Shown here: positions 959 to 17,621 of the stretch, piece after piece
Numbering within the stretch: position 1 is the first letter of the stretch
Layout of the letters: each line of letters starts with the position of its first letter
Source: Clostridia bacterium
Lineage (GTDB): Bacteria > Bacillota > Clostridia > Oscillospirales > Acutalibacteraceae
Length of the DNA stretch: 63,900 nucleotides
Assembly (NCBI GenBank): GCA_017503135.1
Contig: JAFVTQ010000005.1
Coordinates: forward strand, 1 to 63,900
Reading direction: 5' to 3'
Notes under the pieces: model-generated
What the model saw: the letters and a program-made list of their open reading frames with translations, nothing else
Told to the model about the DNA's origin: nothing
The model's database searches: none
Made by a program: the position numbers and the translations under genes

Positions 959-1480
959 ATGAATATGAATATGGATATTAAAGATTTAATCGCAAAACTT
1001 AAATCAGGAAGTGGTAAAAGCAGCACAAAAGCAGGTGGAAGCAGCTTTACAGCTTTCTTTGATAAGAACCCAAAAATGAAGATAATTATTCCGGCAGTGC
1101 TTGTTGCTATTTCAGTGCTCGTTGCACTTGTGATTATTATCTCAACAAATTCACCTGAAATTGACACAACACCAGTTGGCGGTGGCGAGGCTCAGAATGT
1201 TGATGTTCTTCCACAAGATGTCAGAGACTTAGAAGATATCGAAATCGAAGGTGGCAATGTTTTTGATGAGGTTGACGTTGCAAACGCTAAAATTACAGCA
1301 ATTATCAAAAACTCTGACGGGTACTATACAGCAGTTATGGAAACAAAAACAAATTCATATTCAACACTTAATGTTGGCGACTACATAAATGGCTCATCAT
1401 GGATGGTTGAAGATATTACAGACGATGGCGTGTTAATCGCACTTGGCGAAAAGAAAGTTGAAATCAAATACGGTAAATAA
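959..1480 (+). CDS. PilP-like type IV pilus membrane protein
   Basis: First gene of the pilus operon (173 aa), with SD GGGAGG at 943-948 and the ATG at 959. It has a Lys/Ser-rich cytoplasmic N-terminus, one transmembrane helix at about residues 40-62, an acidic linker, and a compact C-terminal beta domain at about 105-173. The C-terminal pattern (AKITAI, a turn, then strand, NVGDYINGSSWMVEDITDDGVLI) resembles the small beta domain of PilP and GspC, which link PilN/O to the secretin. In this monoderm context it could bridge the inner complex to the LysM/secretin-N protein encoded next. The family assignment is by pattern only and needs a profile search. Role in the pilus locus is likely from position. 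Confidence 0.6.
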   Translation: MNMNMDIKDLIAKLKSGSGKSSTKAGGSSFTAFFDKNPKMKIIIPAVLVAISVLVALVIIISTNSPEIDTTPVGGGEAQNVDVLPQDVRDLEDIEIEGGNVFDEVDVANAKITAIIKNSDGYYTAVMETKTNSYSTLNVGDYINGSSWMVEDITDDGVLIALGEKKVEIKYGK

Positions 1481-1544
1481 ATCGTATTGAAATAAATTTT
1501 GCAATCATTTTATTAACATAAAAGTTTTTTAGGGGGAACTAAAA

Positions 1545-3323
1545 ATGAAAGGTTCTAAGAAGTTCGGCAAATCAATTCTTGTAGTTGCTTTGTCACTGAT
1601 TCTCATTTTCAGTGCGGTGGCACCACTCACTGTTATGGGTTCAGAAAATTATGGTGGCGGTTCAAACGGAACTGGTCTTGGTCAATATCGTTACTACTCG
1701 GTTAAGAGTGGTGATACAATGGCTTCAGTTGCACAGAAGAATGGTATCACAATCAGCGATATTATGACTTATAACAATCTTGATAGTAATGATACTCTTT
1801 ACAGAGGTCAAGTGCTCAAGCTCCCGATTACATCAGCTAATGCACCATCAAGCATTGTTTCATCAAAGATTACAATCAAAGCTAAAGACGCAAGCGTTAA
1901 AGACGTTGTTTCAGCAATTGCTTACAATGCAGGCTACACAGTAATCTTTAAGGGAACAGATTCAAAAATCAGCGTTGAGTTTGAAGATATGTCTCCAATG
2001 AAGGCTCTTGACTATGTTACAAGATTTGCAGGCCTTTCATATCTCAAAGATGGCAACACTCTTTTAATCTCAACTCCAGATGACCTTAACACAACATTTG
2101 TTGACACTCTTGTGCTTACAAAGTTTACACTTAAGTACATTACTCATGGTGAACTTACAGGTCAGGCAAGTGCTCTTGGTCTTTCAAGCATGAAAATAGT
2201 TTCTCAGTCAAACAATCAAAGAGAAATCTGGATTAGTGCATATCCAAAAGAAATGGCAAAACTCAAGGAACTCATCGAAATTCTCGATGCAAGTGAAAAT
2301 ATCAGTGTAGGCAGCAACAGTATTGCGTCTGCATTTACCCCTATCAAACTTGACTATATTTCAGCTTCTGAATTCTCAAGTCTTCTTGGTAATCTTGGTC
2401 TTCACACGGGTATTACCATGTCTTCATATCCAATGACATTGTTCGTATATGTAAGTGGTGTTCAGCTTTCTGATATTATGACAATCAAAAAGGTTGTTGA
2501 CACAGAAGAAGCACTCAGCAACGTCCTCGGTGGTAATGGCACAACAACTCCTGATGGCTCAACAGGTGATGCAACTCCAGCTCCGGATGATTCAACTGGC
2601 AACACAACACCAGCTCCAGACGATTCAACAAATACAACTCCAAATCCTGATGATTCAACAAATCCTGATGACTCAACAACAGAAGAACCAGTTGTAGAAC
2701 CAACAGTGTTTGAAAAAATTGACCTTGTGAACATTACAAGAAATGATGCGGAAGCTCTTATTGGTAAATCAGGCGAAAATGTTTCAACTTATGGTCATGA
2801 AAGAATGACAAAATCTCTCTGGCTCTTTGGTACTCAGAGCGCAATCGACGCAGTTAAAGCACTTATCACAGCAGTTGATGAAAATGTTGCTTCTGCAGCA
2901 GATACTGTTCATACATACACAGCTCAGAATTGCACAGTTGACGAACTAATGAATCGTCTCCAAGGCGTAACTTATGAAAATGTTGCATTCTATCAATATG
3001 ACCATTCAGATATCACAAATAACATTATTGTTTATTGTGATGACACAACTTGGAACAATGAAATCTTGCCATTGCTCGAAAAACTTGATTCAGTTGATGG
3101 TGCAAATGTTAAGACATGGATTCCTGTAACATCAGCAAAAGATGATGCAGTAGCAACATTGAAAGAAAAGGTAGACACATTGAAAGGCCTTTATCCAGAG
3201 GCATTCAACGGCATTGCTATCGAATACATTTATATGGATGGAAAGACTGTTGTTTACGCAAATGCAACTTCAGCAGAGGCAACACGAATTAAGAATGTCA
3301 TATTAGCATTTGATCAGGCATAA
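1545..3323 (+). CDS. LysM protein with secretin-type N domains, no secretin barrel
   Basis: 592 aa; SD AGGGGG precedes the ATG. Order of parts: signal peptide or N-terminal anchor (residues ~8-32); a LysM domain (~48-93, YSVKSGDTMASVAQKNGIT..., ending GQVLKLPI) for binding peptidoglycan; an STN/N0-like domain (~103-170); secretin N-type alpha/beta repeats to ~320; a Thr/Pro/Asp-rich linker (~330-385) made of PDDST-type repeats; then three more N-type repeats to the end. The conserved C-terminal beta-barrel domain of PilQ/GspD secretins is absent. That fits a cell with no outer membrane. I infer a wall-anchored ring or guide through which the pilus passes, working with the PilP-like protein upstream. 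Known: PilQ carries similar N domains. Inference: function without the barrel. Confidence 0.75.
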   Translation: MKGSKKFGKSILVVALSLILIFSAVAPLTVMGSENYGGGSNGTGLGQYRYYSVKSGDTMASVAQKNGITISDIMTYNNLDSNDTLYRGQVLKLPITSANAPSSIVSSKITIKAKDASVKDVVSAIAYNAGYTVIFKGTDSKISVEFEDMSPMKALDYVTRFAGLSYLKDGNTLLISTPDDLNTTFVDTLVLTKFTLKYITHGELTGQASALGLSSMKIVSQSNNQREIWISAYPKEMAKLKELIEILDASENISVGSNSIASAFTPIKLDYISASEFSSLLGNLGLHTGITMSSYPMTLFVYVSGVQLSDIMTIKKVVDTEEALSNVLGGNGTTTPDGSTGDATPAPDDSTGNTTPAPDDSTNTTPNPDDSTNPDDSTTEEPVVEPTVFEKIDLVNITRNDAEALIGKSGENVSTYGHERMTKSLWLFGTQSAIDAVKALITAVDENVASAADTVHTYTAQNCTVDELMNRLQGVTYENVAFYQYDHSDITNNIIVYCDDTTWNNEILPLLEKLDSVDGANVKTWIPVTSAKDDAVATLKEKVDTLKGLYPEAFNGIAIEYIYMDGKTVVYANATSAEATRIKNVILAFDQA

Positions 3324-3409: not shown

Positions 3410-4510
3410 ATGCAATTTTCCGGTAAACCAAGTAACTATCCGGTTACATTAGAAGACCTTCTCAGACTTACCGTTGAAAAAAAAGGTTCCGACCTTCATA
3501 TTGTCAGTGGTATTCCACCTTGCATCCGTATAAATGGTGACTTGGTAAGACAAGAAGAATTACCAAGAATGTTTCCTGAAGATGTTGAAGCTCTTCTTCT
3601 TCAAGTTATTTCAGAAGACCAGAAACGCGAGCTAGAACTTGAGTGGGAACTTGACCTTGCTATTTCAGTCCCTAAATGTGCTCGTTTTAGAGGTAATGTT
3701 ATTATTCAGCGTAGTTCTATAGCAGCAGTTTTCAGAGCAATTCCTTTTGACATTCCAGAACTTGATAAATTGGGGCTTCCTGCTGATGTTAAGAGACTTT
3801 GCAACCTTCCTCGCGGTCTTGTTCTTGTTACAGGCCCAACAGGTAGTGGTAAATCAACAACTCTTGCGGCAATGCTTAACTACATAAATGAACGTTACGA
3901 AACAAACATCGTAACGGTTGAAGACCCTATCGAATTTTTACACACACATAAAAAATCAACAATCAGACAGAGAGAAATCGGAACAGATACAAAAAGCTTT
4001 GCAAATGCTCTACGTACAGTTCTTCGTCACGACCCTGACACCATTATGATTGGTGAAATGCGTGACCCTGAAAGTATTCAAATTGCGGTTACAGCAGCTG
4101 AAACAGGACATTTGGTTTTCTCAACACTCCACACTCAGACTGCTCCACTTACAATTTCGAGAATTATTGACTCTTTCCCAGCTGAACAAAAAGCACAAAT
4201 TCGTTCACAGCTCGCAAACTCATTGAAAGCAGTTATTTCTCAACAACTTATTCCGACAATTAACGGTAAAGGCAGAGTTGCTGCCGTTGAATATATGGTT
4301 GATACTCCAGCGATTAAAAACCTTATTCGTGAAGAGAAGGAACATCAACTTTATGCAACAATGCAAACAGGTCAGATGCAAGGTATGCAGACTATGGACC
4401 AGGCTTTGCTTAATCTTCTTAAACAACAGAAAATAACAAAGGATTCAGTGATTGAGTTCTGTGTTGACCAGAAAGAAGTTTTAAGACTTATGGCCACAAT
4501 GGGCTATTAA
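3410..4510 (+). CDS. pilT: Type IV pilus retraction ATPase PilT
   Basis: 366 aa, the usual PilT length. Hexameric cytoplasmic ATPase that powers pilus retraction. It has the PilT N-terminal domain (GSDLHIVSG), Walker A GPTGSGKST near residue 142, the Asp box (TVEDPIE), Walker B with DTIMIGEMRD near 209, the His box (FSTLHT), and the PilT-specific C-terminal signature IKNLIRE near 302, which PilB lacks. Its presence implies that the pili retract, so twitching or DNA uptake is plausible. It is placed ahead of pilC and far from pilB. Confidence 0.95.
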   Translation: MQFSGKPSNYPVTLEDLLRLTVEKKGSDLHIVSGIPPCIRINGDLVRQEELPRMFPEDVEALLLQVISEDQKRELELEWELDLAISVPKCARFRGNVIIQRSSIAAVFRAIPFDIPELDKLGLPADVKRLCNLPRGLVLVTGPTGSGKSTTLAAMLNYINERYETNIVTVEDPIEFLHTHKKSTIRQREIGTDTKSFANALRTVLRHDPDTIMIGEMRDPESIQIAVTAAETGHLVFSTLHTQTAPLTISRIIDSFPAEQKAQIRSQLANSLKAVISQQLIPTINGKGRVAAVEYMVDTPAIKNLIREEKEHQLYATMQTGQMQGMQTMDQALLNLLKQQKITKDSVIEFCVDQKEVLRLMATMGY

Positions 4511-4537: not shown

Positions 4538-5746
4538 TTGGCAGCATTTACTTATGACGGTTTAAACCGACAAGGTCAAAATGTTCACGGCGAAGTTATT
4601 GCTGATAACTCGTCCCAAGCTATAAATAAACTCCGTGAAGCAGGTATTATTGTTACGGAGATGAAAGAAAAGGCAAATAATGCTAACAAAATGTCATCAA
4701 AATCAGGTGGCAAGGTTACAACGGAAGATGTTGCTGTTTTCTGTCGACAGTTAGCAGTTATGCTTTCAGCCGGTGTTCCAATTACAAGAGCGCTTGCAAC
4801 ACTTTCAAAACAAACAGAAAATGGCAAATTTGCAAACGCAATTGATACTGTTGCAAAAAATGTTGAAGGTGGTATGCCACTTTCAGATGCCTTTAAAGAA
4901 TACCCTAAAATTTTCTCACCACTGTTTATCGCCATGATTGCAGCAGGTGAAACTGGTGGTATCATGGAACAATCTCTTGTCAGTCTTGCTGACCAGATGC
5001 AGAAAGAAAAAAATCTTCAGAAAAACATCAAATCTGCGTTCTCGTACCCACGAAGTGTTGGTATTATGGCGGTTGTAATTTTGATTGCCATGCTCTATTT
5101 CATGGTTCCAACTTTCAAGAAGATGATGAAAGATGGAATGGAGCTTAATGCACTTTCGCAGTTTATTTTTGACGCTTCTGACAGCTTGATTAACAATACA
5201 GGAACATGGTTCTTGGTTGCAGTTGCAATTGTTGGTGGAATTATTTTGATAATGAAAAGTCCGCCAGCTCATCTCTTGTGGGAAAACACAAAACTTACAA
5301 TGCCAGTGTTCGGTTCGTTTATGACGAAGATGGTAGTTGCTCGTTTCTGTAGAACATTTGCAACACTTCTTGCTGGTGGCGTTACTGCTGTTGAAGCAAT
5401 GAAGAGTGCAGGACCTACAGCAGGTAGCGATAAGTTAGCAAAAGCAGTTTCAGATGCTATTTCAGATATTGAAGAAGGCTCTCCAATATCGAATGCACTT
5501 GAAAAAAGTGGTTTGTTCCCACCAATGGTTACAGGTATGGTGGCTATCGGTGAAGAGTCTGGTGCTCTGCCTGAACTTCTCGACAAGGTTGCAGAATTCT
5601 TTGAAGAAGACGTTGAAAACACATCTCGTAACTTAAGAGCGATGATTGAACCAATTGCCCTTGTTTTTGTTGGTATTGTTGTTGGTGGCATGCTTATTGC
5701 CCTTTACGTTCCAATGCTTACAGCATCTACATCAATGGGTTCATAA
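4538..5746 (+). CDS. pilC: Type IV pilus platform protein PilC
   Basis: 402 aa polytopic inner-membrane protein of the GspF/PilC family. It is the platform on which PilB and PilT act to insert or remove pilin subunits. Two homologous T2SSF domains are visible (about residues 65-190 and 265-390), each with GVPITRAL / GVTAVEAM-type starts, plus three hydrophobic segments near 170-190, 220-240 and 370-395. The start codon is TTG at 4538 behind a strong SD (AAGGGGGG); the next residues, AAFTYDGLNRQG, match the usual PilC N-terminus. Confidence 0.95.
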   Translation: MAAFTYDGLNRQGQNVHGEVIADNSSQAINKLREAGIIVTEMKEKANNANKMSSKSGGKVTTEDVAVFCRQLAVMLSAGVPITRALATLSKQTENGKFANAIDTVAKNVEGGMPLSDAFKEYPKIFSPLFIAMIAAGETGGIMEQSLVSLADQMQKEKNLQKNIKSAFSYPRSVGIMAVVILIAMLYFMVPTFKKMMKDGMELNALSQFIFDASDSLINNTGTWFLVAVAIVGGIILIMKSPPAHLLWENTKLTMPVFGSFMTKMVVARFCRTFATLLAGGVTAVEAMKSAGPTAGSDKLAKAVSDAISDIEEGSPISNALEKSGLFPPMVTGMVAIGEESGALPELLDKVAEFFEEDVENTSRNLRAMIEPIALVFVGIVVGGMLIALYVPMLTASTSMGS

Positions 5747-5782: not shown

Positions 5783-6754
5783 ATGGCTAAAACAAAAAGC
5801 ATAATTGGTTGTGAAATAACAACCAATGAAATCAGAGCCGTTGAACTTACAAAAGACAATGGTGTTTATAAAATCCTTGCAATGGGCTATATGCCGTTGG
5901 AAGAGGGCATTGTTGAAGAGGGATTCATCAGAGATGCTGACCGTTTTAATACAGCAATAACACAGTTAATTGCTTCTGGTAATTTCCAGACAACTGAAAT
6001 TGCTGTTGCGGTTAATAACGAAAATGTTCTTATGAGGTTTGCATCTTTCCCTAAAGTTGACAGTGATAAACTTCGCAATATGGTTCTTTTGCAGGCTCAG
6101 GAATTTATTCCTATTCCTATTCAGGAAATGGAAGTGGACTATGTTGTTGCAGGTGAAACAAAAGACGACGACGATGTTCCACAGACAAATGTTATGCTTA
6201 TAGCTGCAAGAAGACAGATGCTTGAAGGTTATATCAATATTTTTACAGCATCAAAGCTTCAGATTCAGGATATCGACTCATCACTTCTTGCTTATTGCCG
6301 TGGTATCAACGAAATCTGTAATGGAGCTAAATATGGTGTCGTGAATCTTACAGACGATGTGTTGAACTATATTGTTGTTCATGGTAGTGAAATTTCAATG
6401 GTTCGTTCAATTACAATACCTGAAAAAATGCGCAATGCGGTTTCTTCAATTTTTAAAAACTCACGAGATGAGTCTTATAGTGAAGAAGAATTAGAATCAG
6501 TAAGTGCATTCCTTATGCAAGAAACTTCTTCAACTATCAGTTATTATTCAATGCAGAACAATATACCAATGGATAAAATTTATCTTATTGTAAACTCAAC
6601 AGCAACACCAAAAATTTTGGCTAGTTTACAAGAAAACATTTATGTTCCAATGGAAGTTCCACAGTTCTATCCATCACTTCAGTCAATGAGTGTTACACCT
6701 TTGGGTGAGTATGCAAGTTGTATTGGAGTTGCAATGTCAGGTTTGGAGGGATAA
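5783..6754 (+). CDS. pilM: Type IV pilus assembly protein PilM
   Basis: 323 aa cytoplasmic actin-like ATPase. It has the nucleotide-binding beginning GCEITTNEIRAVEL, the vNNENVLMRFASFPKV segment typical of PilM, and the EFIPIPIQEMEVDYVV motif. It binds the cytoplasmic N-terminus of PilN and couples the motors to the alignment complex. It is followed after 3 nt by pilN, the standard pilMNO order. PilN N-terminal residues MFKVSLLPASYRK fit the PilM-binding motif. Confidence 0.92.
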   Translation: MAKTKSIIGCEITTNEIRAVELTKDNGVYKILAMGYMPLEEGIVEEGFIRDADRFNTAITQLIASGNFQTTEIAVAVNNENVLMRFASFPKVDSDKLRNMVLLQAQEFIPIPIQEMEVDYVVAGETKDDDDVPQTNVMLIAARRQMLEGYINIFTASKLQIQDIDSSLLAYCRGINEICNGAKYGVVNLTDDVLNYIVVHGSEISMVRSITIPEKMRNAVSSIFKNSRDESYSEEELESVSAFLMQETSSTISYYSMQNNIPMDKIYLIVNSTATPKILASLQENIYVPMEVPQFYPSLQSMSVTPLGEYASCIGVAMSGLEG

Positions 6755-6757
6755 GTT

Positions 6758-7459
6758 TTGTTTAAGGTTAGTTTGTTGCCTGCAAGTTATAGAAAATTAC
6801 TTGATGGCAAAAAGAAAAAAGATATTATTCTTAAAATTGCTTTAATTGCTTTGTTCTGTATGTTGGTTATTTATGTGGGGCTTTTTGTTAGAACCTTAAT
6901 TTTAAAAGGTCAGATAAAAGACATAAATAGACAAAACTCTGTAATTACAGCAGAAATTAATGAATTACAGCAGTATAAAGTTATATATGATGACCTCATG
7001 ATTGCTCAGAATAGATTGGAAACTATCAAGGCTAAAAATCCGAGTGCATTGAAGTTTATGACATTAATTCAGTCAAATCGTCCAGAATATATAAAAATTA
7101 AGGCGATATCATTAAATGATTGGCAGAACAATCCGGTTTGTGTTATTGAAGGCGAACTTTCAGCAGCGCAAAAAATCCGTGATGCAGTTGACCATCTTCG
7201 TGCTTACGAGGAGTTCCTTAAGACTAATGAAGCTTTTGCAGATTTTGTGACAGAAGTAAAAGTCTTGAATGATATGCCAATTATTGACGATGATAAAAGC
7301 GAAGGAACATATTCTTTTAGAATATTTATTTCGCTCGGTGGTGCAATTCAAATGGATGCATCTGGCAATTTGGTTACTACAACAACCACAACAACTACAA
7401 CCACAACAACTACTACAGCACCAGCGACACAGGCAACTGAGTCAACTACTGCAGAATAA
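6758..7459 (+). CDS. pilN: Type IV pilus assembly protein PilN with poly-threonine tail
   Basis: 233 aa bitopic protein. It has a short cytoplasmic N-terminus with the PilM-binding motif (LLPASYRK), one membrane helix (~25-47), an extracytoplasmic coiled coil (~50-100) and an alpha/beta domain. The start is TTG (6758) with SD TTGGAGGG, inside the end of pilM. The C-terminus is odd: a run of 15 threonines followed by APATQATESTTAE, encoded by mixed ACA/ACT/ACC codons near 7375-7420. Such Thr-rich tails are common O-glycosylation or wall-spanning linkers. PilN proteins normally lack one. Confidence 0.85.
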   Translation: MFKVSLLPASYRKLLDGKKKKDIILKIALIALFCMLVIYVGLFVRTLILKGQIKDINRQNSVITAEINELQQYKVIYDDLMIAQNRLETIKAKNPSALKFMTLIQSNRPEYIKIKAISLNDWQNNPVCVIEGELSAAQKIRDAVDHLRAYEEFLKTNEAFADFVTEVKVLNDMPIIDDDKSEGTYSFRIFISLGGAIQMDASGNLVTTTTTTTTTTTTTTAPATQATESTTAE

Positions 7460-7474
7460 GAGGAGGATTTACAA

Positions 7475-8026
7475 ATGAATACAAATATCAATCTTTCTCA
7501 AATTAAAGAAAAAATCAATGGCAATGTTATCATAACTATTGTTTTAATTCTTTTGGCGGTAGTTCTTGGTTATGTATGTTGGTTAACATTTGACAAAGGT
7601 GTGAATTTAGAGGCAGATGTCTCAAAACACATCACAGAGTATAACGACAACAGAAATTTATTGAAGAGTCTTAAAAATCTTCAAGCTAACTCAGATTATT
7701 ATGCAGCACAAAAAGAAAAGTATGATGACGTTATTGCTGATGCTGATACATACAACACAGTTGATTATTATGTTGAACTTACAGAACTTTGCGAAAAATA
7801 TGAGTTAACTATCAAAGAAATCACAATTGGTGAATTAGTGCCAACGGGTAGCGTTAAATCGGCTACTTCAACCATTGCTGTTGAAGGCGATGAGATTAAT
7901 GTTAAACAGATGGCTGAATTTATTGTTTCACAACAAGAAATTGCAAGAATTGACACAATTGCAATGGCTGAACAAGAAGACGGAAGCGTTGTTGCATCAC
8001 TTGTAATTGTTAACTTCACTAAATAA
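7475..8026 (+). CDS. pilO: Type IV pilus assembly protein PilO
   Basis: 183 aa; strong SD AGAGGAGG. One membrane helix (~18-38), a coiled-coil stretch (~50-100) and a small ferredoxin-like C-terminal domain ending QEDGSVVASLVIVNF. The topology and the place directly after pilN identify it as PilO, although sequence conservation in this family is low. Forms the PilN-PilO heterodimer of the alignment complex. Confidence 0.82.
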   Translation: MNTNINLSQIKEKINGNVIITIVLILLAVVLGYVCWLTFDKGVNLEADVSKHITEYNDNRNLLKSLKNLQANSDYYAAQKEKYDDVIADADTYNTVDYYVELTELCEKYELTIKEITIGELVPTGSVKSATSTIAVEGDEINVKQMAEFIVSQQEIARIDTIAMAEQEDGSVVASLVIVNFTK

Positions 8027-8065: not shown

Positions 8066-9751
8066 ATGGGTGATATTATAATCCCCGGCAGTATTTGCGC
8101 AAGACTTATAGATGCCGGTATAATAAATGAAAACCAACTTAAAGAGGCTCTTGAAATTCAGAAAACAAGTAAGCAACTTATCGGTACAATTCTTACTCAG
8201 TTGGGATATTGTACAGAAGAAGATATTGCAAAGACTCTTGCCAAAAAAACAGGCTACAAGTTTGTTTCGATTGATGAAGTTGGCGTGAATATTGCAGTGG
8301 CAAACCTTATTACACCTGAGTTTGCTCTCAGAAACAATGCTCTTCCTCTTTATGAAGAAGAAGGTGTTGTTTATGTTGCAATGCAAAATCCTAATGATAT
8401 TCTTTTGGTTGATAACCTTAGAATGATTACAGGGTATGAAATTTGTCCAGTTGTAGCAGCAGATATGGAGCTTGCTGTTGCTATTGAAAATTTTGCAAAT
8501 ATGAACAGTGGTGTCGAAGATTACGATGACGATGCAGAAGATACAACAGCTGCTGAATCTGAACAACTCGACATTGACGACAAGCCAACAGTTCAGCTTG
8601 TTAACCAGATTATCAACAACGCTATCAAAGCAGGTGCATCTGATATTCATATTGAAGCACTTGAAAAGTATATGAGAGTTCGCTTCAGAATTGACGGTGT
8701 TTTGCAAGAAATTATGCAGAACCCAATTAAAATGTATGCAGGTGTTATCTCAAGAATTAAGGTTATCGGCGGTATGGATATCGCTGAACGCCGTATTCCA
8801 CAAGACGGTCGTGCTACAGTTAAATTTGAAGACAAAACAATGGACGTTCGTATTGCTTCAATGCCTACAGTTTATGGCGAAAAAGTCGTAATGCGTCTTT
8901 TGGAAAGAAACAGTTCTCAGGCTGTTACTATTAAGGACATTAAGTTCAGTCCACGTCAGTTTGATAGATTTGACCATGCTATTCGTATGCCTTATGGTTT
9001 CGTTCTCGTTACAGGACCTACTGGTAGTGGTAAATCAACAACTCTTTATGCGACTTTGGCAGAAATCAGTACAATTGAAAAGAACGTTATTACACTTGAA
9101 GACCCTGTTGAACGTCGTATGGCTGGTATCAATCAGGTTCAGATGAATAACCGTGCAGGTATGACTTTCGCAGCAGCTCTTCGTTCAGTTCTCCGTTCTG
9201 ACCCTGATATTGTCATGGTCGGTGAAATTCGTGATAGTGAGACTGCAAAAATTGCCGTTGAAGCTGCCCTTACAGGACACTTGGTTCTCTCAACACTACA
9301 TACAAACGACGCACCTGGTGCTGTTACTCGTCTTGATGAAATGGGTGTTGAACCATTCCTTACAGCGTCTTCACTTGTTGGCGTTCTTGCACAGCGTCTT
9401 GTTAGAAAACTCTGTCCAAAATGCCGTGAAGAATATGAAATTTCACACGCAGAACTCAAAAAGATTGTTCCTGACCTTGAAACTTATGGTTACAATCAAC
9501 CTTCATATAAGCTTTATAAAGCAAAGGGCTGTTTGACTTGTAACAACACAGGTTATAAGGGCCGTGAAGCTGTATTTGAGTTCCTTACAGTTACAGAAGA
9601 AATGAAACGTCTTATTCTTGATAGAGCAACAATCACAGAAGTTCGTGACCTTGCAGTTAAACAAGAAATGAAGACACTTAAAGACGAAGGTCTATATAAA
9701 ATGATGGAGGGTACAACCTCTCTCGAAGAAGTTTTACGTGTTATCGTATAA
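8066..9751 (+). CDS. pilB: Type IV pilus extension ATPase PilB
   Basis: 561 aa hexameric ATPase that drives pilus polymerisation. N-terminal GspE/MshEN-type domain (~residues 8-150) starting GDIIIPGSICARLIDAGIIN, a variant of the fold that can bind c-di-GMP in some PilB proteins; acidic linker; then the ATPase core with Walker A GPTGSGKST near 318, DPDIVMVGEIRD near 380, and a zinc tetracysteine (CPKC near 450 and CLTC near 489) that is characteristic of PilB/GspE and absent from PilT. Confidence 0.95.
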   Translation: MGDIIIPGSICARLIDAGIINENQLKEALEIQKTSKQLIGTILTQLGYCTEEDIAKTLAKKTGYKFVSIDEVGVNIAVANLITPEFALRNNALPLYEEEGVVYVAMQNPNDILLVDNLRMITGYEICPVVAADMELAVAIENFANMNSGVEDYDDDAEDTTAAESEQLDIDDKPTVQLVNQIINNAIKAGASDIHIEALEKYMRVRFRIDGVLQEIMQNPIKMYAGVISRIKVIGGMDIAERRIPQDGRATVKFEDKTMDVRIASMPTVYGEKVVMRLLERNSSQAVTIKDIKFSPRQFDRFDHAIRMPYGFVLVTGPTGSGKSTTLYATLAEISTIEKNVITLEDPVERRMAGINQVQMNNRAGMTFAAALRSVLRSDPDIVMVGEIRDSETAKIAVEAALTGHLVLSTLHTNDAPGAVTRLDEMGVEPFLTASSLVGVLAQRLVRKLCPKCREEYEISHAELKKIVPDLETYGYNQPSYKLYKAKGCLTCNNTGYKGREAVFEFLTVTEEMKRLILDRATITEVRDLAVKQEMKTLKDEGLYKMMEGTTSLEEVLRVIV

Positions 9752-9796
9752 TTATTTATTATTTTTACGATGCCATTTCAGAAAGGAGCAGACAAG

Positions 9797-11575
9797 ATGA
9801 AAAAATACCTTAAAAATAATGAAGGTATGGCTTTGCCTATGGTACTTATAATTATGGCAATTATAATGACTTTTACTACAGGTTTGGCGGTATTGGCTTA
9901 TAATTCATATGTGTCTGTTAGATGGATGAGTCAGGAGAAACAGGCTTATTACTTGGCACGTGCAGGTGTTGAAGCTGCCTCTTATGCTTATAGAGAAGCT
10001 GTGAGTAAAGCTAGCGGTGACACTACTTCTGATACAGGCAGATTCGTACAAGTTGGTGAAAATGGTGGTGATGAAGCTATCATTACATCAAGCAAAGTGT
10101 ATGCATATTACACCAAAAGCAGTAATGCTAACGACAATACCATTTGGGATGGCTTTGCTTTTTCGTTAGAAGCAGCATCGACAGAGAATCCAGGTTATTT
10201 TGGCTATTTTGAGGTTCAGATTGGCAATGGTGCAGATTTAGTTCGCACAAAAGACGAAACTGCTGATAAAGGTTATGTAGAAACTGAAACACCAGTTAAA
10301 GTGTTTAAGAGTGTGGGCCATATAGCTGAAAATAATATTGTTAGAACAGTTTATGGTTACATAACACCTACTGAAACCATTCAGGGTGAAACATTGTATG
10401 ATGAAAACGGTATTCTTAAAAGAGCTGTTGGAGCTGGCGCATTTACAAAAAAAGATGAAATCACTATCAGCTATGAAACACTTGATACAGAAGTGGGTAT
10501 TACCGGGCAAGATGGTTTCTTGACAAGACTTGCCAAAATTGCTAGGAGTTTATTTAAAGGCCTTATAAATCAAGTTTATAAGCAGTTTGCTAACTTGAAG
10601 GATGGCGACGGTAATTATATCTTCCCTAACTTCCCAAGAAACAGACATATTGATATGTATTCAAAAATAAGTGATTCAACACTTGTTTTGACCAAACCAG
10701 ATAATTCAAAGCTTATTAAGGGTGGTCCAAAGCTTAGTGAAACAGTTGGCAAAGATGGTATGCAGAATTATGGCGATAATTTCTATGTTATTTCGTCTGG
10801 CGAAAATCTATTCTTGCAAAATGTGGGCATTGATGCAACGCCTGAAAAGGGACAATACAACTCAATCGGTCTTTATGGTGACCAGATTATAATTGACGGT
10901 AATATTATACTTTATGCTTATATCACAAACCCTGACTCACTTGCGGGTAGTGTTTTGACATCAACAATTTCTCTTTTAGGTAACCGTTTCTGCTTGGGAA
11001 CAGTTATGTTGGGTCATGGTAGGGTTTATGATGAAAACGACCCTAAATTGTTCAAAGGAAAAGGCATCACCGATGAAAATGGTAAGGATGTTGCGGCAAA
11101 TAAAGTTTATTTCAACGGTAATGTCGTTTTAAAACTATATACACAAGGTGTGGGTGTTGAAACATATCGAATTTTCAATGCTGGTGATATGGCATATTTC
11201 TACGGTTCATTCGGTGAAAATACTACAACTAATACAAGCGCAGGCAAAATTGAATCAACATCAGCAGGTATTGACCTTTTGAAATATTTTGTTGACGCTG
11301 TTATTGAAGGTCGCGATGGTTATCATATTTATGGTGACGCCGTTAAAGAAAAAATGCAAAAACTTAGAGAAATCTATTATGGTACAGACTCACCATCATA
11401 TTTTGAAGGTAACACAGTCTTATTTAAGAGATTAGAGGTTACAACAGATAATAAAGGTAGTGTGTTGGTAAATGGTGAAAAGGGAAGAATTGATGAAATT
11501 GTTCCACCAATGCCAAGCTCTTCGGTTTCAATTAGTTGGGGTCAGCCACGAGCTTGGGACGTTTTCCACCAATAA
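9797..11575 (+). CDS. Large GspK/PilX-like minor pilin without Glu5
   Basis: 592 aa from the ATG at 9797, chosen because AAAGGAG (9782-9788) lies just upstream; an in-frame ATG at 9770 lies before that SD. The N-terminus MKKYLKNNEGMALPMVLIIM is a type III (prepilin) signal cleaved after Gly10, followed by a ~25-residue hydrophobic helix. The mature +5 residue is Met, not the conserved Glu. In characterised systems the minor pilin without Glu5 (GspK, PilX) caps the filament tip. The remainder is a large beta-rich ectodomain with no family that I recognise. Directly followed by the giant pilin. Confidence 0.8.
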   Translation: MKKYLKNNEGMALPMVLIIMAIIMTFTTGLAVLAYNSYVSVRWMSQEKQAYYLARAGVEAASYAYREAVSKASGDTTSDTGRFVQVGENGGDEAIITSSKVYAYYTKSSNANDNTIWDGFAFSLEAASTENPGYFGYFEVQIGNGADLVRTKDETADKGYVETETPVKVFKSVGHIAENNIVRTVYGYITPTETIQGETLYDENGILKRAVGAGAFTKKDEITISYETLDTEVGITGQDGFLTRLAKIARSLFKGLINQVYKQFANLKDGDGNYIFPNFPRNRHIDMYSKISDSTLVLTKPDNSKLIKGGPKLSETVGKDGMQNYGDNFYVISSGENLFLQNVGIDATPEKGQYNSIGLYGDQIIIDGNIILYAYITNPDSLAGSVLTSTISLLGNRFCLGTVMLGHGRVYDENDPKLFKGKGITDENGKDVAANKVYFNGNVVLKLYTQGVGVETYRIFNAGDMAYFYGSFGENTTTNTSAGKIESTSAGIDLLKYFVDAVIEGRDGYHIYGDAVKEKMQKLREIYYGTDSPSYFEGNTVLFKRLEVTTDNKGSVLVNGEKGRIDEIVPPMPSSSVSISWGQPRAWDVFHQ

Positions 11576-11592
11576 GAAAGGAGTGACTCATA

Positions 11593-14500
11593 ATGATTAA
11601 GAAATGGAATAATTATTTGCTTAATAAAAAGGGTATGTCCCTTGTTGAAGTTTTAACAGCAATGACAATTCTTACTCTTGTGATATTTTGTTTTGCTCCT
11701 TTGATGCTTGCATATATGGATACAATCAATATTGCGGGCGATAAAATGGAGCGTGTATATAAGGATGCCGGTAACCTTGAAGTTCTTTTAGGTAAGAACA
11801 GTCTTGATGGCAATTACACTGTTTCACTTGATACAGTTCCAATTATATTAACATCACCTGATGCTACTATTACTGTTGATGGCAACACTCAAAATGTTGC
11901 AGCGGCAGAATATCCTTCTTTCGTTAAAGCCTATGGTCTTACATCTGGCGGTACTTTCGCGAAAGATAAAGACGGCAACCCAATTGCTGGTGGCAATATA
12001 AACATAAGTACTGGTCAGTCAACTTTTTATACAGATAAAGCTGGTAGTGCTTCGGGAATTACCTTGTTCCCTTCTTCACTTACTGATGACTTTAAGGTTG
12101 CATATATTACAATTTATGGTGCAGACATTAACTTTGTGTTAGGCCAATGCGAGTTTGTTACAACAGGTCCAACTGAAGAAATTAAACTCAAAGAAGGCAC
12201 TGATTATGACCTTGAATACCATCCGGATAGAAAAAACCCAACTGATACAAACATTCTTTTGCTTACTGTTTATGGTGGTGGTGATAATATTTCTTTTGAA
12301 ACATCACCATTGGTGTTCAAGCATTTAGGTCAGCGATATGAAATTCAGATTGACGCACCTTCTATGATTATGGTTGGTGAAAAAGCACCTGACAATAATT
12401 ATTATTACTATGTATCTCGTGGTGAACTTGATGAAGACGGTAATCTTCTTATCCATCGTCGTGCTATGAACACAACAAATGACCCTAAAGGTGGCGGAAG
12501 AGTAACACTCACTTCTGCTATGAACGACGTTGAGTGGGTGCCTGTTGAAAGCGCCGATTCATATAGTAAAGATAGCAGTGGCGATTCTTATGGTTACTAT
12601 GTAATGTGCGGTGACAATGGTCAGGTTCGTCGTTTTTGGAAACGTCCTGACACAACAATAACAGTTGACGGTAAAACTGTAAAAGTCGACGGTAACTATT
12701 ATTGGGGCGGCGATTATACTTACTATACTGACTATGACTTTGTTCAGGTTAATGACAGCGACCCCGCACACATTAACTCTACAGATAAAAACGGTAATAC
12801 ATATGCGGACAGAGTTTATAGCACAGACACATCCTTTAAATTTATCGCTCAAAGAGACGCAACCAACACAAAATCTGGCTTCAACGTAGGTTCAAAAGAA
12901 TACGCAATTGCAGGTGTTGTTAATACTTCAACTGCACTTTTGAGAGTTTTGTCAGTTGTTTCTGTTACAAGAGCTGATGATGGTGAGTTCTATGGCAGAG
13001 ATGGTGAAATCTATTTCTATGAACTTAACGGCAACAACATTGGCGTTTATCCAACTGTTACTGAAGCACGTAACAAGGCAGGCTCTTTCCAAGGCTATAC
13101 TGTAAAAACATGGGTTAACACTATTGGTAAAGATACTGGTAACCCTGCTCATGGTTGGCTTGAAACAAAAGATAACTCATATTTTGATGTTAATGGTGTT
13201 GACACATCTTCAGTAAATACAGATTCTTATCCAATCACATTGACTTCTGTTGATGCAATTCGTATCACAGGTACAGGCACATCTCATAAAAAGAATGTTA
13301 CAGATTCCAGCGAAGGTAGTTACTATTTCACATCAACAGGTGATGGTGATACAATTGCTGAAGGCGCAACAACAAATATGAACTATCCACAAGAAAACTA
13401 TACACTTTATTGCGGATATATCCCTGCTATGATGGACTTGTTTGCATCAAGAACAGGTTCAACAGGTTCTTATTTCGAACCTGTTGAATGGAAGGGTACA
13501 TATGGTCATGAAGAAGATAGTAAGGGTACATTCTATGAAATACCTTCTGCTTCGGGCATCACCAGAGCGGGTAATAGAAAAACAGTTAAAAATAATATTC
13601 ACCTTTATACATTCTGGCGTATGACTCTTGGTGTTACACCTTATTTAACAAGTGGTTCAGACCTTAATATTGACACTTCAAAACAGGGTAATCTTGCATT
13701 CTATCGAGAATCAGGCGACTGTGACGAGTATCTTGTTCACTATCCATACACAAATCTTCAATATGCTATTACTGGTAAATTCTACGACCAAGAAACATTT
13801 ACAAATAATAGAAATAATGTTGAATCTCTTTTCAAAAATGCTAAAAACGACAAATATGAAATAGCGTCACCTAATATTTTGATTAACCAGTTAAGTGGAG
13901 CTCATCAAAACGTAACAAATGGTGAGATTGTTGATATTACAGTTTCATATCTTTCACATCCATTTGCTGTAGCTGTTGCTGCTAACCCAACTGATGACAT
14001 TGTTTATGACTATTCAAATAACAAGGATGCCGGTCAGATTTTCTATTGGCATAACCGTCGTGAAACAATTACATTCCTTGACTCAGCAAGTACAATGGTA
14101 CCAAGCGGTGAAAACGATATTCCAGTTTCATTGATGGTTGGTTATCTTCTTGGTGGTACTGTTGAATACGGTCCAAGTGGTGACAAAACATTCGTTAATG
14201 TTGGTTCAGTTATGAACAACGGCATCGTTTTCATTCGTGCGGGTGACTATACAGTTAAAAAGCAAAACGCTTCTAACGCACAGACTTATGAATATCAGGC
14301 AACTGATAGCACTGGCTACCAACTTAGTAGTGAGTCAAACGTTTTCCATCAGTTCTATTATTTGAATTCAAGAGCAAAGCTTCCTGGTTCATTTCTTGGT
14401 ATTGATACTAACAGAGAAGATACAGGTCACCATGGCGAGTATTCTGACGAACCTACAAAGGGTCATAATATTGGTAACCTTTATGGTGCTGACTATTGGC

Positions 14501-15507
14501 AGATTAACCGTCATATTCAGTATCGTTCTCTTACAGGTGCGACAGCGGCAGATAAAAGCACCGCTTCATCGAGCTATGAATATCTTCGTTCACACCCAAT
14601 GTCAAACACAAAGGTTAATTGTGTTGCGTGGGGTACAACTTGGAATGGTTACCCAGAAGCAATGTGGGGAACTGAAAATGGTACAGTTCTTTCTTGGTGG
14701 GTAAATACAAGCAAAGTTGCTAATGAAGCTGCACAGGATTGGAATGACCGTTCAGTTGATGCTGAAATTCAGTCATATAAATGGATTGATAATATAAACG
14801 GTGTTACTTTTGCTGTAACAAGTAAAGAGTATAAAGATACTGTTGGTTCAGCTGCATGGGGAACTGGAAGCACTACCGGTGCATCATTTACTCCTGGTTC
14901 AGATAGATTCAAATATTTTTATGATAAAGGCACTCAGGCAACAGGCTCTTGGGGCTCAATTGGATTCATCAACACTCTTGAAACAATTAATGATATTGAA
15001 TTTGCTGATGACATCTGGATTGCAGCAGGTGACCAGAGCAATAAAGACCCTGACGATTATTGCGCAAGCGGAAGTTTAGCACAAAGTGATGCTGGATTAA
15101 AAGCAAACTCTCATAGAGCTGTTATTAAGCCATATAGTAACTCTGGTTCAGGCTCATGGGTAAATGTTCGTTATTGGGTTGACCTTGTTGATGACGGAAC
15201 AAGCAAACAGTCAGATACCAACTCAACTTATCACTGGCGCGCAGTTAAAATTTCAGATGATAAAAACTGCAATATTGTTCAGATTAACAATGTTAATGGT
15301 ATGTGGATTGCTACCGGATATAAGGACGCTAATAACAATGATGAGTTCGATGATGGCGAACAGACAGTTATTAGCTGGACTTATGACCCATTGGTTCCAT
15401 ATGGCGAAGAAGGTGGCTGGAGTACAGATGTTAAAATGTACGATGGCACAACAGAACTTCCACTTTCGGCAATGGGTGGTATCAACTCATGTGCAACAAG
15501 AGACTAA
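11593..15507 (+). CDS. Giant modular pilin / putative tip adhesin (1304 aa)
   Basis: SD AAAGGAGTGA and ATG at 11593. Residues 1-14 are a prepilin leader ending KKG, then MSLVEVLTAM with Glu at mature +5 and a hydrophobic helix to ~40, so it is processed by PilD and enters the pilus. The ectodomain, ~1250 residues, is Tyr/Trp/Asn/Gly-rich. The C-terminal ~320 residues repeat a pattern of NGVTFAVTS, DDIWIAAGDQ and NGMWIATGYKD blade-like strands, suggesting a beta-propeller. A DANNNDEFDDGE acidic loop looks calcium-binding. Known: some Gram-positive T4P carry modular tip pilins with grafted adhesion domains. I infer adhesion to host or food surfaces; the ligand is unknown. Far larger than any ordinary pilin. 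Confidence 0.8.
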   Translation: MIKKWNNYLLNKKGMSLVEVLTAMTILTLVIFCFAPLMLAYMDTINIAGDKMERVYKDAGNLEVLLGKNSLDGNYTVSLDTVPIILTSPDATITVDGNTQNVAAAEYPSFVKAYGLTSGGTFAKDKDGNPIAGGNINISTGQSTFYTDKAGSASGITLFPSSLTDDFKVAYITIYGADINFVLGQCEFVTTGPTEEIKLKEGTDYDLEYHPDRKNPTDTNILLLTVYGGGDNISFETSPLVFKHLGQRYEIQIDAPSMIMVGEKAPDNNYYYYVSRGELDEDGNLLIHRRAMNTTNDPKGGGRVTLTSAMNDVEWVPVESADSYSKDSSGDSYGYYVMCGDNGQVRRFWKRPDTTITVDGKTVKVDGNYYWGGDYTYYTDYDFVQVNDSDPAHINSTDKNGNTYADRVYSTDTSFKFIAQRDATNTKSGFNVGSKEYAIAGVVNTSTALLRVLSVVSVTRADDGEFYGRDGEIYFYELNGNNIGVYPTVTEARNKAGSFQGYTVKTWVNTIGKDTGNPAHGWLETKDNSYFDVNGVDTSSVNTDSYPITLTSVDAIRITGTGTSHKKNVTDSSEGSYYFTSTGDGDTIAEGATTNMNYPQENYTLYCGYIPAMMDLFASRTGSTGSYFEPVEWKGTYGHEEDSKGTFYEIPSASGITRAGNRKTVKNNIHLYTFWRMTLGVTPYLTSGSDLNIDTSKQGNLAFYRESGDCDEYLVHYPYTNLQYAITGKFYDQETFTNNRNNVESLFKNAKNDKYEIASPNILINQLSGAHQNVTNGEIVDITVSYLSHPFAVAVAANPTDDIVYDYSNNKDAGQIFYWHNRRETITFLDSASTMVPSGENDIPVSLMVGYLLGGTVEYGPSGDKTFVNVGSVMNNGIVFIRAGDYTVKKQNASNAQTYEYQATDSTGYQLSSESNVFHQFYYLNSRAKLPGSFLGIDTNREDTGHHGEYSDEPTKGHNIGNLYGADYWQINRHIQYRSLTGATAADKSTASSSYEYLRSHPMSNTKVNCVAWGTTWNGYPEAMWGTENGTVLSWWVNTSKVANEAAQDWNDRSVDAEIQSYKWIDNINGVTFAVTSKEYKDTVGSAAWGTGSTTGASFTPGSDRFKYFYDKGTQATGSWGSIGFINTLETINDIEFADDIWIAAGDQSNKDPDDYCASGSLAQSDAGLKANSHRAVIKPYSNSGSGSWVNVRYWVDLVDDGTSKQSDTNSTYHWRAVKISDDKNCNIVQINNVNGMWIATGYKDANNNDEFDDGEQTVISWTYDPLVPYGEEGGWSTDVKMYDGTTELPLSAMGGINSCATRD

Positions 15508-15517
15508 TTTAAAAACA

Positions 15518-15549
15518 TCAGGGCAGGAAGAAACTGCTTCTTGCCCTGA
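15518..15549 (+). other. Intercistronic hairpin after the giant pilin gene
   Basis: TCAGGGCAGGAAG (15518-15530) pairs with CTTCTTGCCCTGA (15537-15549), 13 bp with one G-U pair and a 6-nt loop. No T run follows, and the next SD begins about 12 nt downstream. It probably protects or separates mRNA segments, or partly hides the next translation start. Confidence 0.6.
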
Positions 15550-15572
15550 CTTCTCTAAAATGGGGTGAGTAA

Positions 15573-16871
15573 ATGTTTAAACTCATACATAAAAACAGAA
15601 AAGGTTTCTCTTTGGTAGAACTGTTAGTTTGTGTGGCTGTTCTTGGTTTGGTTATACCTTTGGCGGGCAACATACTTTACAATTTAATAAACTTTCATGA
15701 CACAATTGTTGACCGCTGGGATGTGCAAACAGCTGTCGACTTGACTTGTAATGACCTTGAAAACAACAAAGATGGTCTTACTAATGCGTTTCAGGTTGAC
15801 CTTATTTACGACCCCGTTATTGAAGAAGGCGTAATTCTGGATAAAGCAACTGGCTATATTGTGTGGAAAAACGGTGCTAATTCTAGCAAGGTTATGCTTC
15901 AAGAAGGCATCGGTGTTAATACCGAAGAACATAAAAGCAATGTATATACTTATATATTCTCTGCTAAAACATGGGATACAGAAGGCCTTTATTTAGGTGA
16001 ACTTCTCTATATGCGTAGCTATGGTGACACTAGAAGTCATCTCTTGTTGAGCGATTATGGATTGGGGAATATTCCTGTAGGTGTAAGTTTTTCGTTAGGA
16101 ACAACAAAAAGTTTAATTACACAAGCCGGCAATGACCCGTTCTATACACAAAATACTATAACAATGCATTTTCGTTCTGGCAAAGAGGACATTGAATATG
16201 GCTATGACACATCATTTGCTATCGTCAATATTGACACAAGCACAAGGCCAATAAATTACAGTGGTGGAAAGCTTGTTACTGAACTTGCGTGGCTTGATAC
16301 TGATTCAAAAACTCCAATAGCTTATGTTGCAGGTTGGGACAATTATGAACTTAACTATAAAAACAGTAATTTGACTACTGACAATGGTTTCCCAGTTGCA
16401 ACTGTTGAACAAGACGGCACAACATATTATGAAACAGGTTATGTGAATGCTGCTGGTGAGAGAGCTGTAATTGAAGATACTTTCCAGATGGAATATGAAG
16501 ACGCAAACGGTAACACTCAAACAGTTGAAGCTCCTGTTATTGCCCGTGAAGGCAATGTTTTAAGATATAAATCTCCAACAGCTGAGAAAACTCATGGTGC
16601 AGCTGAAGAAAAAGGTGCTCCAACAAATGTTGCAAGCTGTCTTACAAGTTTTGCAATGATGGACTCAAACTTAAGAGATGAAGTTCTTGGCAATATCAGA
16701 ATGTTCCGTGATAATGTTCTTCGTGGAACAGAGTTTGGTGATTGGTTTATTCATCAGTATTATTATGTATGGTCACCATTCTTGATTGAACACACAGCAT
16801 TCTTGAAACCTGTTTATCAAACTGTTTTGATTCCGGTTTCTTATGTGTGTGAATTTATAGCGAAATTATAA
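15573..16871 (+). CDS. PilW/GspJ-like minor pilin
   Basis: 432 aa. Prepilin leader MFKLIHKNRKG, then FSLVELLVCVAVLGLVIPLA with Glu at mature +5, as in GspJ/PilW-type pseudopilins, followed by a large beta-rich ectodomain. The SD GGGGTGAG precedes the ATG. It is the last gene of the long pilus transcript. Together with the two upstream genes it gives three large pilins, consistent with a K/I/J-type tip complex. A short hydrophobic segment at the C-terminus (about 415-432) is unusual and might pack against the tip partners. Confidence 0.8.
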   Translation: MFKLIHKNRKGFSLVELLVCVAVLGLVIPLAGNILYNLINFHDTIVDRWDVQTAVDLTCNDLENNKDGLTNAFQVDLIYDPVIEEGVILDKATGYIVWKNGANSSKVMLQEGIGVNTEEHKSNVYTYIFSAKTWDTEGLYLGELLYMRSYGDTRSHLLLSDYGLGNIPVGVSFSLGTTKSLITQAGNDPFYTQNTITMHFRSGKEDIEYGYDTSFAIVNIDTSTRPINYSGGKLVTELAWLDTDSKTPIAYVAGWDNYELNYKNSNLTTDNGFPVATVEQDGTTYYETGYVNAAGERAVIEDTFQMEYEDANGNTQTVEAPVIAREGNVLRYKSPTAEKTHGAAEEKGAPTNVASCLTSFAMMDSNLRDEVLGNIRMFRDNVLRGTEFGDWFIHQYYYVWSPFLIEHTAFLKPVYQTVLIPVSYVCEFIAKL

Positions 16872-16930
16872 TAAACAGTTAAGACGGGATGTGTAAAAAA
16901 TATCTCGTCTTTTTTGTTTACTTTTTTATA

Positions 16931-16959
16931 TTGACTATTTTTGACAAATGGTATATAAT
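16931..16959 (+). promoter_or_regulatory. Promoter of the first major pilin gene
   Basis: TTGACT (16931-16936), 17 bp, TATAAT (16954-16959). This near-consensus site gives the pilin its own transcript apart from the assembly genes, as expected for an abundant subunit. Confidence 0.75.
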
Positions 16960-16968
16960 TTATTTGAC

Positions 16969-16987
16969 GGGGTACGGTATATTCCCG
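16969..16987 (+). promoter_or_regulatory. Pilin leader element GGGTACGG...TTCCCG, copy 1
   Basis: GGGTACGG (16970-16977) followed by TTCCCG (16982-16987) in the predicted 5' leader; GGG and CCC can close a small hairpin. The same pair of blocks, with the same internal distance, lies upstream of the second pilin gene. Confidence 0.5.
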
Positions 16988-17014
16988 TTAATCCCAAAAA
17001 AGAGGGTAATTAAA

Positions 17015-17422
17015 ATGAGAAAGTTACATAATAAAAAAGGTTTTTCACTTGTTGAATTAATGATTGTTGTTGTTATCATGGGTATTTTGATTGCAGTTGC
17101 AATTCCACTCTATGGCGCAGTTACAGCAAACGCTGAAAAGAGAACCTGCCAATCTAATATGGAAAATATGCACTCAATGTTTGCAAAATATTGTGTTATG
17201 GATAAAGATAATACAGCAACAACATTATTGCCAAACGGCTCATATAGCACAAAAGCAGGTTCAACAGACACAATTGCACAAGAGTTTCTTGAAAGCTTTG
17301 AAAACGACGAGCTTCCACACTGCTCGGTTGACGGTCATTATTATTTGCTTACAAAGGTGGATTCATATACTGTTGAAATCAAATGCGTTGATGAAAATGG
17401 TAACGAAACTGCACACAACTAA
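17015..17422 (+). CDS. pilA: PilA-type pilin, copy 1
   Basis: 135 aa from the ATG at 17015 behind AGAGGG; an in-frame upstream ATG would give an implausible 42-residue extension that reads through the promoter. Prepilin leader MRKLHNKKG, then FSLVELMIVVVIMGILIAVAIPLYGA, nearly identical to the second pilin for about 35 residues. The mature head is short with cysteines in RTCQSN, KYCVMD, PHCSVD and IKCVDE, able to form disulfides. Either a major or an alternative pilin. Confidence 0.92.
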   Translation: MRKLHNKKGFSLVELMIVVVIMGILIAVAIPLYGAVTANAEKRTCQSNMENMHSMFAKYCVMDKDNTATTLLPNGSYSTKAGSTDTIAQEFLESFENDELPHCSVDGHYYLLTKVDSYTVEIKCVDENGNETAHN

Positions 17423-17491
17423 TTGATTTAGGCAAAACTGACAAACATATAACAACTTAATTGGCAATTTCGACAAATTTCAAAAAAAGGC

Positions 17492-17520
17492 TTTACAAAT
17501 AACTTGATTTGTAGTAGTAT
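17492..17520 (+). promoter_or_regulatory. Probable promoter of the second major pilin gene
   Basis: TTTACA (17492-17497), 17 bp, TAGTAT (17515-17520). It is weaker than the copy upstream of the first pilin, and the shared leader block starts only 2 bp after this -10, so the true start may differ. Confidence 0.5.
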
Positions 17521-17522
17521 AA

Positions 17523-17592: not shown

Positions 17593-17621
17593 TAATTCTT
17601 TAATTAAAGGAGAAAATTATT

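Follow-up and report, generated by a model that had tools for sequence, protein, structure and literature searches.

Overall organization of the locus

The window analysed here is a stretch of 63,900 nucleotides from a Clostridia bacterium of the order Oscillospirales (contig C2, JAFVTQ010000005.1, one of 6 contigs in a 1.2 Mb genome that is 75% complete). From position 959 onward, a same-strand gene cluster encodes a PilP-like protein, a secretin-related protein that we call SecN, and then PilT, PilC, PilM, PilN-like, PilO-like and PilB proteins followed by prepilins (Table 1). The cluster headed by the PilP-like and SecN genes is, judging by the predicted products, a type IVa pilus (T4aP) machine comprising PilB, PilC, PilT, PilM, PilN, PilO and prepilins, with PilN and PilO recognized via relatives. 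An earlier note on this DNA had read the locus as a pilus cluster of a one-membrane cell that opens with a PilP-like protein and a LysM protein built of secretin N-type domains. Both open reading frames (ORFs) lie exactly where it placed them, on the same strand and with T4aP genes behind them.

Domain structure of SecN

SecN starts with a signal-like N terminus, recognized as hydrophobic by hydropathy only, and continues with a LysM domain, one N0 domain, two N1-type domains, a linker and three further N1-type domains before the stop. This is the arrangement that the earlier note had described, with secretin N-type domains on both sides of a Thr/Pro/Asp linker, and Pfam, the family profile and hhalign bear it out. 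A linker this long is found only in the three rows from the window's genus among the 22 of alignment A1.

Taken alone, the window SecN matches Secretin_N (4.5e-5) and STN (3e-4) in Pfam below the cut-off. Of the 22 family members scanned, 21 match Secretin_N and 12 match STN. The profile of the 22 relatives in A1 matches the PilQ structures 4av2 (3.3e-12) and 6w6m (1.7e-10) and GspD 5wq7 (1.7e-10) in the PDB, as well as the PilQ N0 structure 4ar0 (1.3e-11). LysM proteins head this list because the profile includes LysM; the alignments to PilQ and GspD all fall outside that domain. With STN, Secretin_N, LysM and PilP all searched for at the locus, similarity to secretins and to PilP is thus found, mainly via family profiles.

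For the repeats, alignment A7 was cut into blocks that were compared by hhalign, with the LysM and N0 blocks serving as negative controls. D2, D3 and D4 match one another at >98% probability and D6 is the weakest repeat, while the LysM and N0 blocks reach at most 11.5% against the rest. By this comparison, SecN carries one N0 domain and five related N1-type repeats, and then ends without a barrel. A frameshift that cut off the barrel was considered as an artefact and rejected, since the relatives likewise end barrel-less. In one genome (L044 / L073; G101:C17), the SecN copy is split into two ORFs by an in-frame stop, reflecting either decay or a sequencing error.

The PilP/GspC-type partner

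The protein encoded upstream consists of an N-terminal part, one transmembrane helix with a hydrophobic peak near residues 42–60 by hydropathy, and a C-terminal HR-type domain. GspC has one transmembrane helix plus an HR domain. The window protein does not qualify as a lipoprotein, as the hydrophobic helix is present and there is no cysteine, so its topology is GspC-like instead. Among its relatives, that of G147 (L052:9053-9481) has a lipobox-like, lipoprotein-type N terminus by eye, and the others are transmembrane-anchored.

A Pfam scan of the window protein alone matched no family. The top five of six PDB matches of the family profile at E≤10 are PilP 2ivw (5e-6), PilP 4av2_M (8.7e-6), GspC 2lnv (3e-4), OutC (0.029) and GspC 3oss (0.23), and Pfam at E≤1 finds PilP in 13 of 20 members and T2SSC in 6. 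These matches agree with the PilP-like assignment made in the earlier note. The clostridial profile also picks up the immediate upstream neighbour of the PilQ gene in a deltaproteobacterium (L094, 9e-7).

Co-occurrence of the two genes

The two genes occur as a pair. A SecN core profile, from which LysM had been cut, matched 19 of 391 genomes of the class, 18 of them strongly (E≤2.3e-44); the nineteenth is a 51-residue edge match of G182 and was not counted. The PilP profile matched 45 genomes at 1e-3 and exactly 18 at E≤2.3e-15, and the two sets of 18 are identical. Both matches fall on one fused ORF in G045 and G125. The PilP matches between 4.6e-9 and 1e-3 (27 of the 45 genomes) were not counted as PilP; that of G287, at 4.6e-9, covers the N-terminal part only and may represent a cut gene. 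A PilM-model match is present in 17 of the 18 pair genomes, with none in G067. Because profiles A2, A9 and A10 hold rows from many of the genomes that they re-found, E-values, though not presence, are inflated for those genomes and loci. Neither of the fusions L048 and L066 nor the diderm locus L094 is in any of these profiles, and L088 is outside the PilP profiles.

Among 295 genomes of the order to which the window belongs, 15 match its SecN at 1e-6; of these, G352, G572 and G391 do so only in LysM and the flanking part, and G418 in LysM plus N0. Named carriers include records of Pygmaiobacter massiliensis (strain Marseille-P3336, L084), Thermoclostridium, Ruminiclostridium, Desulforudis and Desulfovirgula. 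The PilP–SecN pair is a family, not a broken gene.

Gene order and natural fusions

Gene order was surveyed in 41 loci, 40 of which have a SecN ORF (L065 has none under the longest-ORF rule); removal of the diderm loci L093 and L094 leaves 38 barrel-less loci. The set of 41 leaves out L067-L070, which have weak barrel matches, as well as short loci and records repeating a contig. PilP lies directly upstream of SecN in 33 of the 38 and is fused to it in frame in three more (L048, L066 and L088). In 27 of the 38, the gene that comes next downstream is a type IV pilus gene in the same orientation. The other 11 are four loci at contig ends (L048, L053, L066 and L092), five loci of a group of genomes designated f101, L088 and L089; ORFs were picked by length without a gene finder, which produces false neighbours in the GC-rich f101. 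Such a survey had been proposed in the earlier note, and its outcome fits the pairing seen in the window.

Two of the fusions, L048 and L066, are from one genus (g57), and that of L088 groups on the tree with Desulforudis, Desulfovirgula and L091 (support 89/79). In all three, the N0 match begins 9–18 residues after the PilP match, and SecN shows no signal peptide of its own. The HR and N0 domains therefore sit together in the fusions, and the PilP helix would have to export SecN. The missing inner signal peptide is also what would be expected of a true fusion and not of a sequencing slip. L066 is cut by the contig start, and the L048 ORF ends near a contig end before the last domain, with the remainder on another contig; the PilP–N0 joint is unaffected in either. 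Pfam on the L088 fusion gives T2SSC at 0.01, STN at 0.007 and Secretin_N at 2.8e-9.

Absence of the barrel and of an outer-membrane marker

The source genome has no match to the secretin barrel PF00263 at its 75% completeness. Nor is PF00263 matched over the cut-off in any of 28 carrier genomes or of 7 more carriers accessed via named loci, which bears out the missing barrel of the earlier note. Omp85, used as a proxy for an outer membrane, has no match in the same 28 and 7 genomes, and neither marker is found in G610 and G638, two genomes of the window's genus that are both 99% complete. In the diderm comparison genomes (L093 and L094), PF00263 and Omp85 are both present, and the PF00263 controls are also positive. 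Four of the 28 carriers (G235, G460, G376 and G045) have partial PF00263 matches below the cut-off, on other contigs and covering model positions 123-168 only; they were rejected as secretins, and their surroundings look like transporter operons (by eye, no family search).

Since neither Omp85 nor a secretin barrel is matched, the carrier cells look monoderm, which agrees with the one-membrane cell that the earlier note had assumed. An outer membrane elsewhere among the carriers was rejected on the same negative searches. A clostridial-type pilus operon with a LysM-bearing SecN also occurs in a metagenome-assembled genome (MAG) of 2.1 Mb labelled Candidatus Sumerlaeota (L091). This genome has no Omp85 or secretin match, so its label or bin may be wrong.

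Other genes of the cluster

Downstream of the pair, the cluster runs through the pilus motor and platform genes to five prepilin genes and a prepilin-peptidase-like gene (Table 1). The 1304-residue prepilin-like protein has a very large C-terminal part, and with its 601-residue neighbour looks like a giant modular minor pilin. The PilN-like protein has a long threonine run near its C terminus and then a tail rich in Thr, Ala and Ser. A 948-residue multi-membrane-span protein (18181-21027), YfhO-like by eye only, is encoded between the prepilin genes and that of the prepilin-peptidase-like protein.

Table 1. Coordinates of the PilP–SecN pair, its domains and the downstream pilus genes in the window
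Feature	Position	Strand	Evidence
PilP/GspC-type protein, 173 aa	959..1480	+	N-terminal part, one transmembrane helix, C-terminal HR-type domain
SecN (name used here), barrel-less secretin-N protein, 592 aa	1545..3323	+	Pfam, family profile, hhalign repeats
LysM domain, aa 51-94	1695..1826	+	Pfam PF01476 E=1.2e-13
Secretin N0/STN domain, aa 107-182	1863..2090	+	STN; profile to PilQ N0 4ar0 and 4av2
N1-type repeat D2, aa 183-250	2091..2294	+	Secretin_N; hhalign
N1-type repeat D3, aa 258-322	2316..2510	+	hhalign to D2 98.5%
Thr/Pro/Asp-rich linker, ~aa 326-387	2520..2705	+	Translation
N1-type repeat D4, aa 388-448	2706..2888	+	hhalign to D2 98.7%
N1-type repeat D5, aa 454-519	2904..3101	+	hhalign to D2 95.3%
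N1-like repeat D6, aa 520-592, protein end	3102..3320	+	hhalign to D2 85.1%, D4 90.5%, D3 35.7%, D5 19.7%
PilT retraction ATPase	3410..4510	+	TIGR01420 E=6.5e-141
PilC platform protein	4538..5746	+	T2SSF 2e-67
PilM	5783..6754	+	PF11104 2.7e-21; TIGR01175 2.9e-28, below its cut-off
PilN-like	6758..7459	+	Via L071 ORF 15500-16087 (1e-10), itself Pfam PilN 6.8e-6; Pfam scan of window protein alone, no PilN match
PilO-like	7475..8026	+	Via L085 ORF 15686-16282 (1e-17), itself Pfam PilO 1.6e-5; Pfam scan of window protein alone, no PilO match
PilB extension ATPase	8066..9751	+	T2SSE 1.2e-137; TIGR02538 6e-180, below its cut-off
Prepilin genes, five	9770..18044	+	Pfam N_methyl for two, by eye for other three
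Prepilin, 601 aa	9770-11575	+	By eye; no Pfam N_methyl match
Prepilin-like, 1304 aa	11593-15507	+	N_methyl 0.0025, below cut-off
Prepilin	15573-16871	+	N_methyl 1.7e-6
Prepilins	16889-17422 and 17622-18044	+	By eye
Prepilin-peptidase-like (PilD)	21030..21857	+	By eye from translation, no family search made

A putative wall collar and its alternatives

With the domain make-up, homology, operon, co-occurrence, natural fusions and absence of barrel and Omp85 matches established, we consider it reasonably probable that PilP and SecN are the two parts of a collar around a type IVa pilus in the wall of a one-membrane bacterium; contact between the two, ring formation, pilus passage and wall binding are presumed from sequence. 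PilP would be anchored in the membrane beside the PilM–N–O base, and its outer HR-type domain would hold the N0 domain of SecN, as in PilP–PilQ and GspC–GspD. SecN, once exported, would oligomerize via its N1-type ring domains into a stack around the pilus above the membrane. Where present, LysM would pin this stack to peptidoglycan, the role of AMIN domains in diderm PilQ, and the collar could be long enough to reach into the wall. The outer-membrane barrel would be absent because there is no outer membrane. As for the earlier note's re-used wall conduit or ring, the domain order, missing barrel and PilP partner on which it was built stand, and its function is one that we likewise infer.

Several observations weigh against such a collar. 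LysM, which would fix it to the wall, is patchy: it is matched by Pfam in 11 of 22 SecN members, and our own motif pattern labels it in 15 of 34 rows of the N0–N1 tree, where 7 changes are needed and at least four gains or losses are forced by well-supported branches. By this pattern the Pygmaiobacter copy has no LysM, and the L071 orthologue is LysM-less. LysM is an optional putative wall anchor, and conservation lies in PilP and the stack of N domains, so the 'added LysM' of the earlier note cannot carry the argument for a wall conduit. The PilP assignment is weak for the window protein alone, whose best family is TIGR03021 PilP (E=0.0018, below the cut-off). In two loci, L089 and L090, PilP does not adjoin SecN, and in L089 a PilP-like gene lies beside PilM. 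The pair is a minority feature, and many Clostridia with pilus genes seem to do without it: it is found in 18 of 391 class genomes, against 191 with a PilM-model match over the cut-off, a count that other actin-like proteins inflate. Draft or incomplete assemblies make up many of the carriers, so absences from them are not final. Lastly, Streptococcus sanguinis makes T4aP without PilP or a secretin, according to the available part of PMC6916266.

The last of these points also fits a second reading, which is possible but in our judgement unlikely, in which SecN would act as a monomer, either as a wall anchor or as a surface protein. Its N-type domains would tie the PilM–N–O–P base to peptidoglycan against the force of retraction, and the pilus would exit via ordinary gaps in the wall. 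The LysM domain of the window SecN and the long low-complexity linker of its genus are in keeping with this. However, about half of the rows examined are without LysM and hence without a recognized wall-binding part, and six ring-type domains per chain are much for a simple tether.

A further and surprising challenge comes from f101, where four of six genomes keep the pair without a PilC-family match and with all T2SSE matches below the cut-off. In these four (G405, 97% complete; G423, 92%; G477, 93%; G502, 75%), a PilP-like ORF lies directly upstream of SecN. Within the stretches covered, no pilus genes were found at the five f101 loci L060-L064 (G405, G423, G502, G454 and G477). SecN homology is firm in these five (1e-34 to 1e-38 with a profile free of f101 rows), while that of the adjoining PilP is weaker (1e-8 to 3e-4). 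The statement in the earlier note that a PilQ is useless without an outer membrane is accordingly too strong, because four of the six f101 genomes retain the pair with no platform match and with sub-threshold ATPase matches only.

PilP and SecN might then form an envelope complex of their own, for example in wall synthesis, that joined the pilus operon in most lineages and serves mainly for something other than pilus passage. In L062 and L063, the opposite strand carries a FemAB cell-wall gene upstream, which can be counted in favour of this view. Yet a type IV pilus gene directly follows in most barrel-less loci, and the f101 genomes G454 and G440 have PilC-family and T2SSE matches both over the cut-off. 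Moreover, the f101 rows cluster together at the end of a long branch (0.91 changes per column), so loss of the pilus leaving the pair behind is an equally simple account. We regard a separate complex as rather improbable. In f101, the pilus may have been lost with the pair left over, or the pair may have a second use. A broader proposal, which we hold to be doubtful, is that PilP and the barrel-less secretin-N stack form a ring module that crosses the wall of one-membrane bacteria without necessarily serving a pilus, being in most lineages a pilus collar and in f101 a separate envelope conduit or scaffold.

That the genes are a functionless, decaying relic of a diderm pilus system is very improbable: the barrel is gone, one copy has an in-frame stop (L044) and another ORF ends short of its last domain near a contig end (L048), but against this the reading frames are open, their ends are conserved, the two genes strictly co-occur, three fusions exist and domains have changed repeatedly across many families. 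It is scarcely credible that an outer membrane exists and that a true secretin is encoded elsewhere in the genome, SecN being an accessory part; the incompleteness of the source genome leaves room for this, but the two near-complete genomes of its genus lack both markers and the 28 carriers yield only the four partial secretin matches.

Relation to known systems

The collar proposed here has a close counterpart in PilP–PilQ of diderm T4aP (Neisseria meningitidis, Pseudomonas aeruginosa), with which it shares the HR-type domain of PilP, the N0/STN and Secretin_N domains, the neighbouring genes and the T4aP operon. In contrast to that system, there is no PF00263 barrel, no AMIN among the Pfam matches and no Omp85 in the carriers, there are five N1-type repeats, and PilP has a transmembrane anchor in place of a lipid anchor. 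Relative to diderm PilQ, the window SecN has LysM where AMIN would be, and its ring-type domains are multiplied. GspC–GspD of type II secretion resembles the pair in the GspC-like topology and in having several N domains in a row, but here no barrel and no PDZ-like part are seen and the operon is a pilus operon with PilT.

The sources cited in this work include Pelicic 2019 (PMC6916266), Antunes 2016 (PMC5007114), Denise 2019 (PMC6668835) and Imam 2011 (PMC3244431). In diderms, PilP HR contacts PilQ N0, and localization requires the AMIN domains, which bind peptidoglycan (PMC5285504). Proteobacterial T4aP secretins mostly have 0-3 AMIN repeats, N0, Secretin_N and the barrel (PMC7545093). LysM anchors tied to pilus or archaellum machines are known as TsaP, FimV and the PilO–LysM of Chloroflexota (PMC13319060, PMC5285504); those are separate proteins or a PilO fusion, whereas LysM of SecN sits on a secretin N stack, and in part of the family only.

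The nearest precedent is a set of PilQ homologues in Gram-positive pil operons of D. reducens, P. thermopropionicum and H. orenii, for which horizontal transfer was considered possible (PMC3244431); in the portion of that paper available, PilP and LysM do not appear and no absence of a barrel is mentioned. These homologues may be related to SecN, whose relatives include Desulforudis and Desulfovirgula MAGs. In the available text of a paper on R. flavefaciens pili (PMC3672088), secretin, LysM and pilQ do not occur. Among the matches listed in the literature, where subscription papers are mostly outside the coverage, none describes a barrel-less secretin accompanied by PilP in the pili of monoderms. 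The literature on sporulation rings (SpoIIIAG, GerM) and on STN in Firmicutes contributed nothing to the present reading.

In monoderms, the outer-membrane side of the machine, including the secretin, is described as missing (PMC6916266 and the 2023 review PMC10191384), and repeated loss of secretins has been inferred (PMC6668835). Passage of the pilus through the thick wall is held to be an open question (PMC6916266, PMC5007114), and it is described as unclear whether a channel-forming protein exists in Firmicutes (PMC5007114). The strictly paired gene set described here retains the connector and the periplasmic half of a secretin, on the very side that these reviews, in the parts available, call missing. 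Because the pair occurs in the named strain P. massiliensis Marseille-P3336, its role is amenable to gene deletion and imaging. That the inner half of an outer-membrane pore and its membrane connector are kept in a pilus cluster suggests a ring that may guide the pilus through the wall, and the pair also bears on what survives of a diderm machine once the outer membrane has gone.

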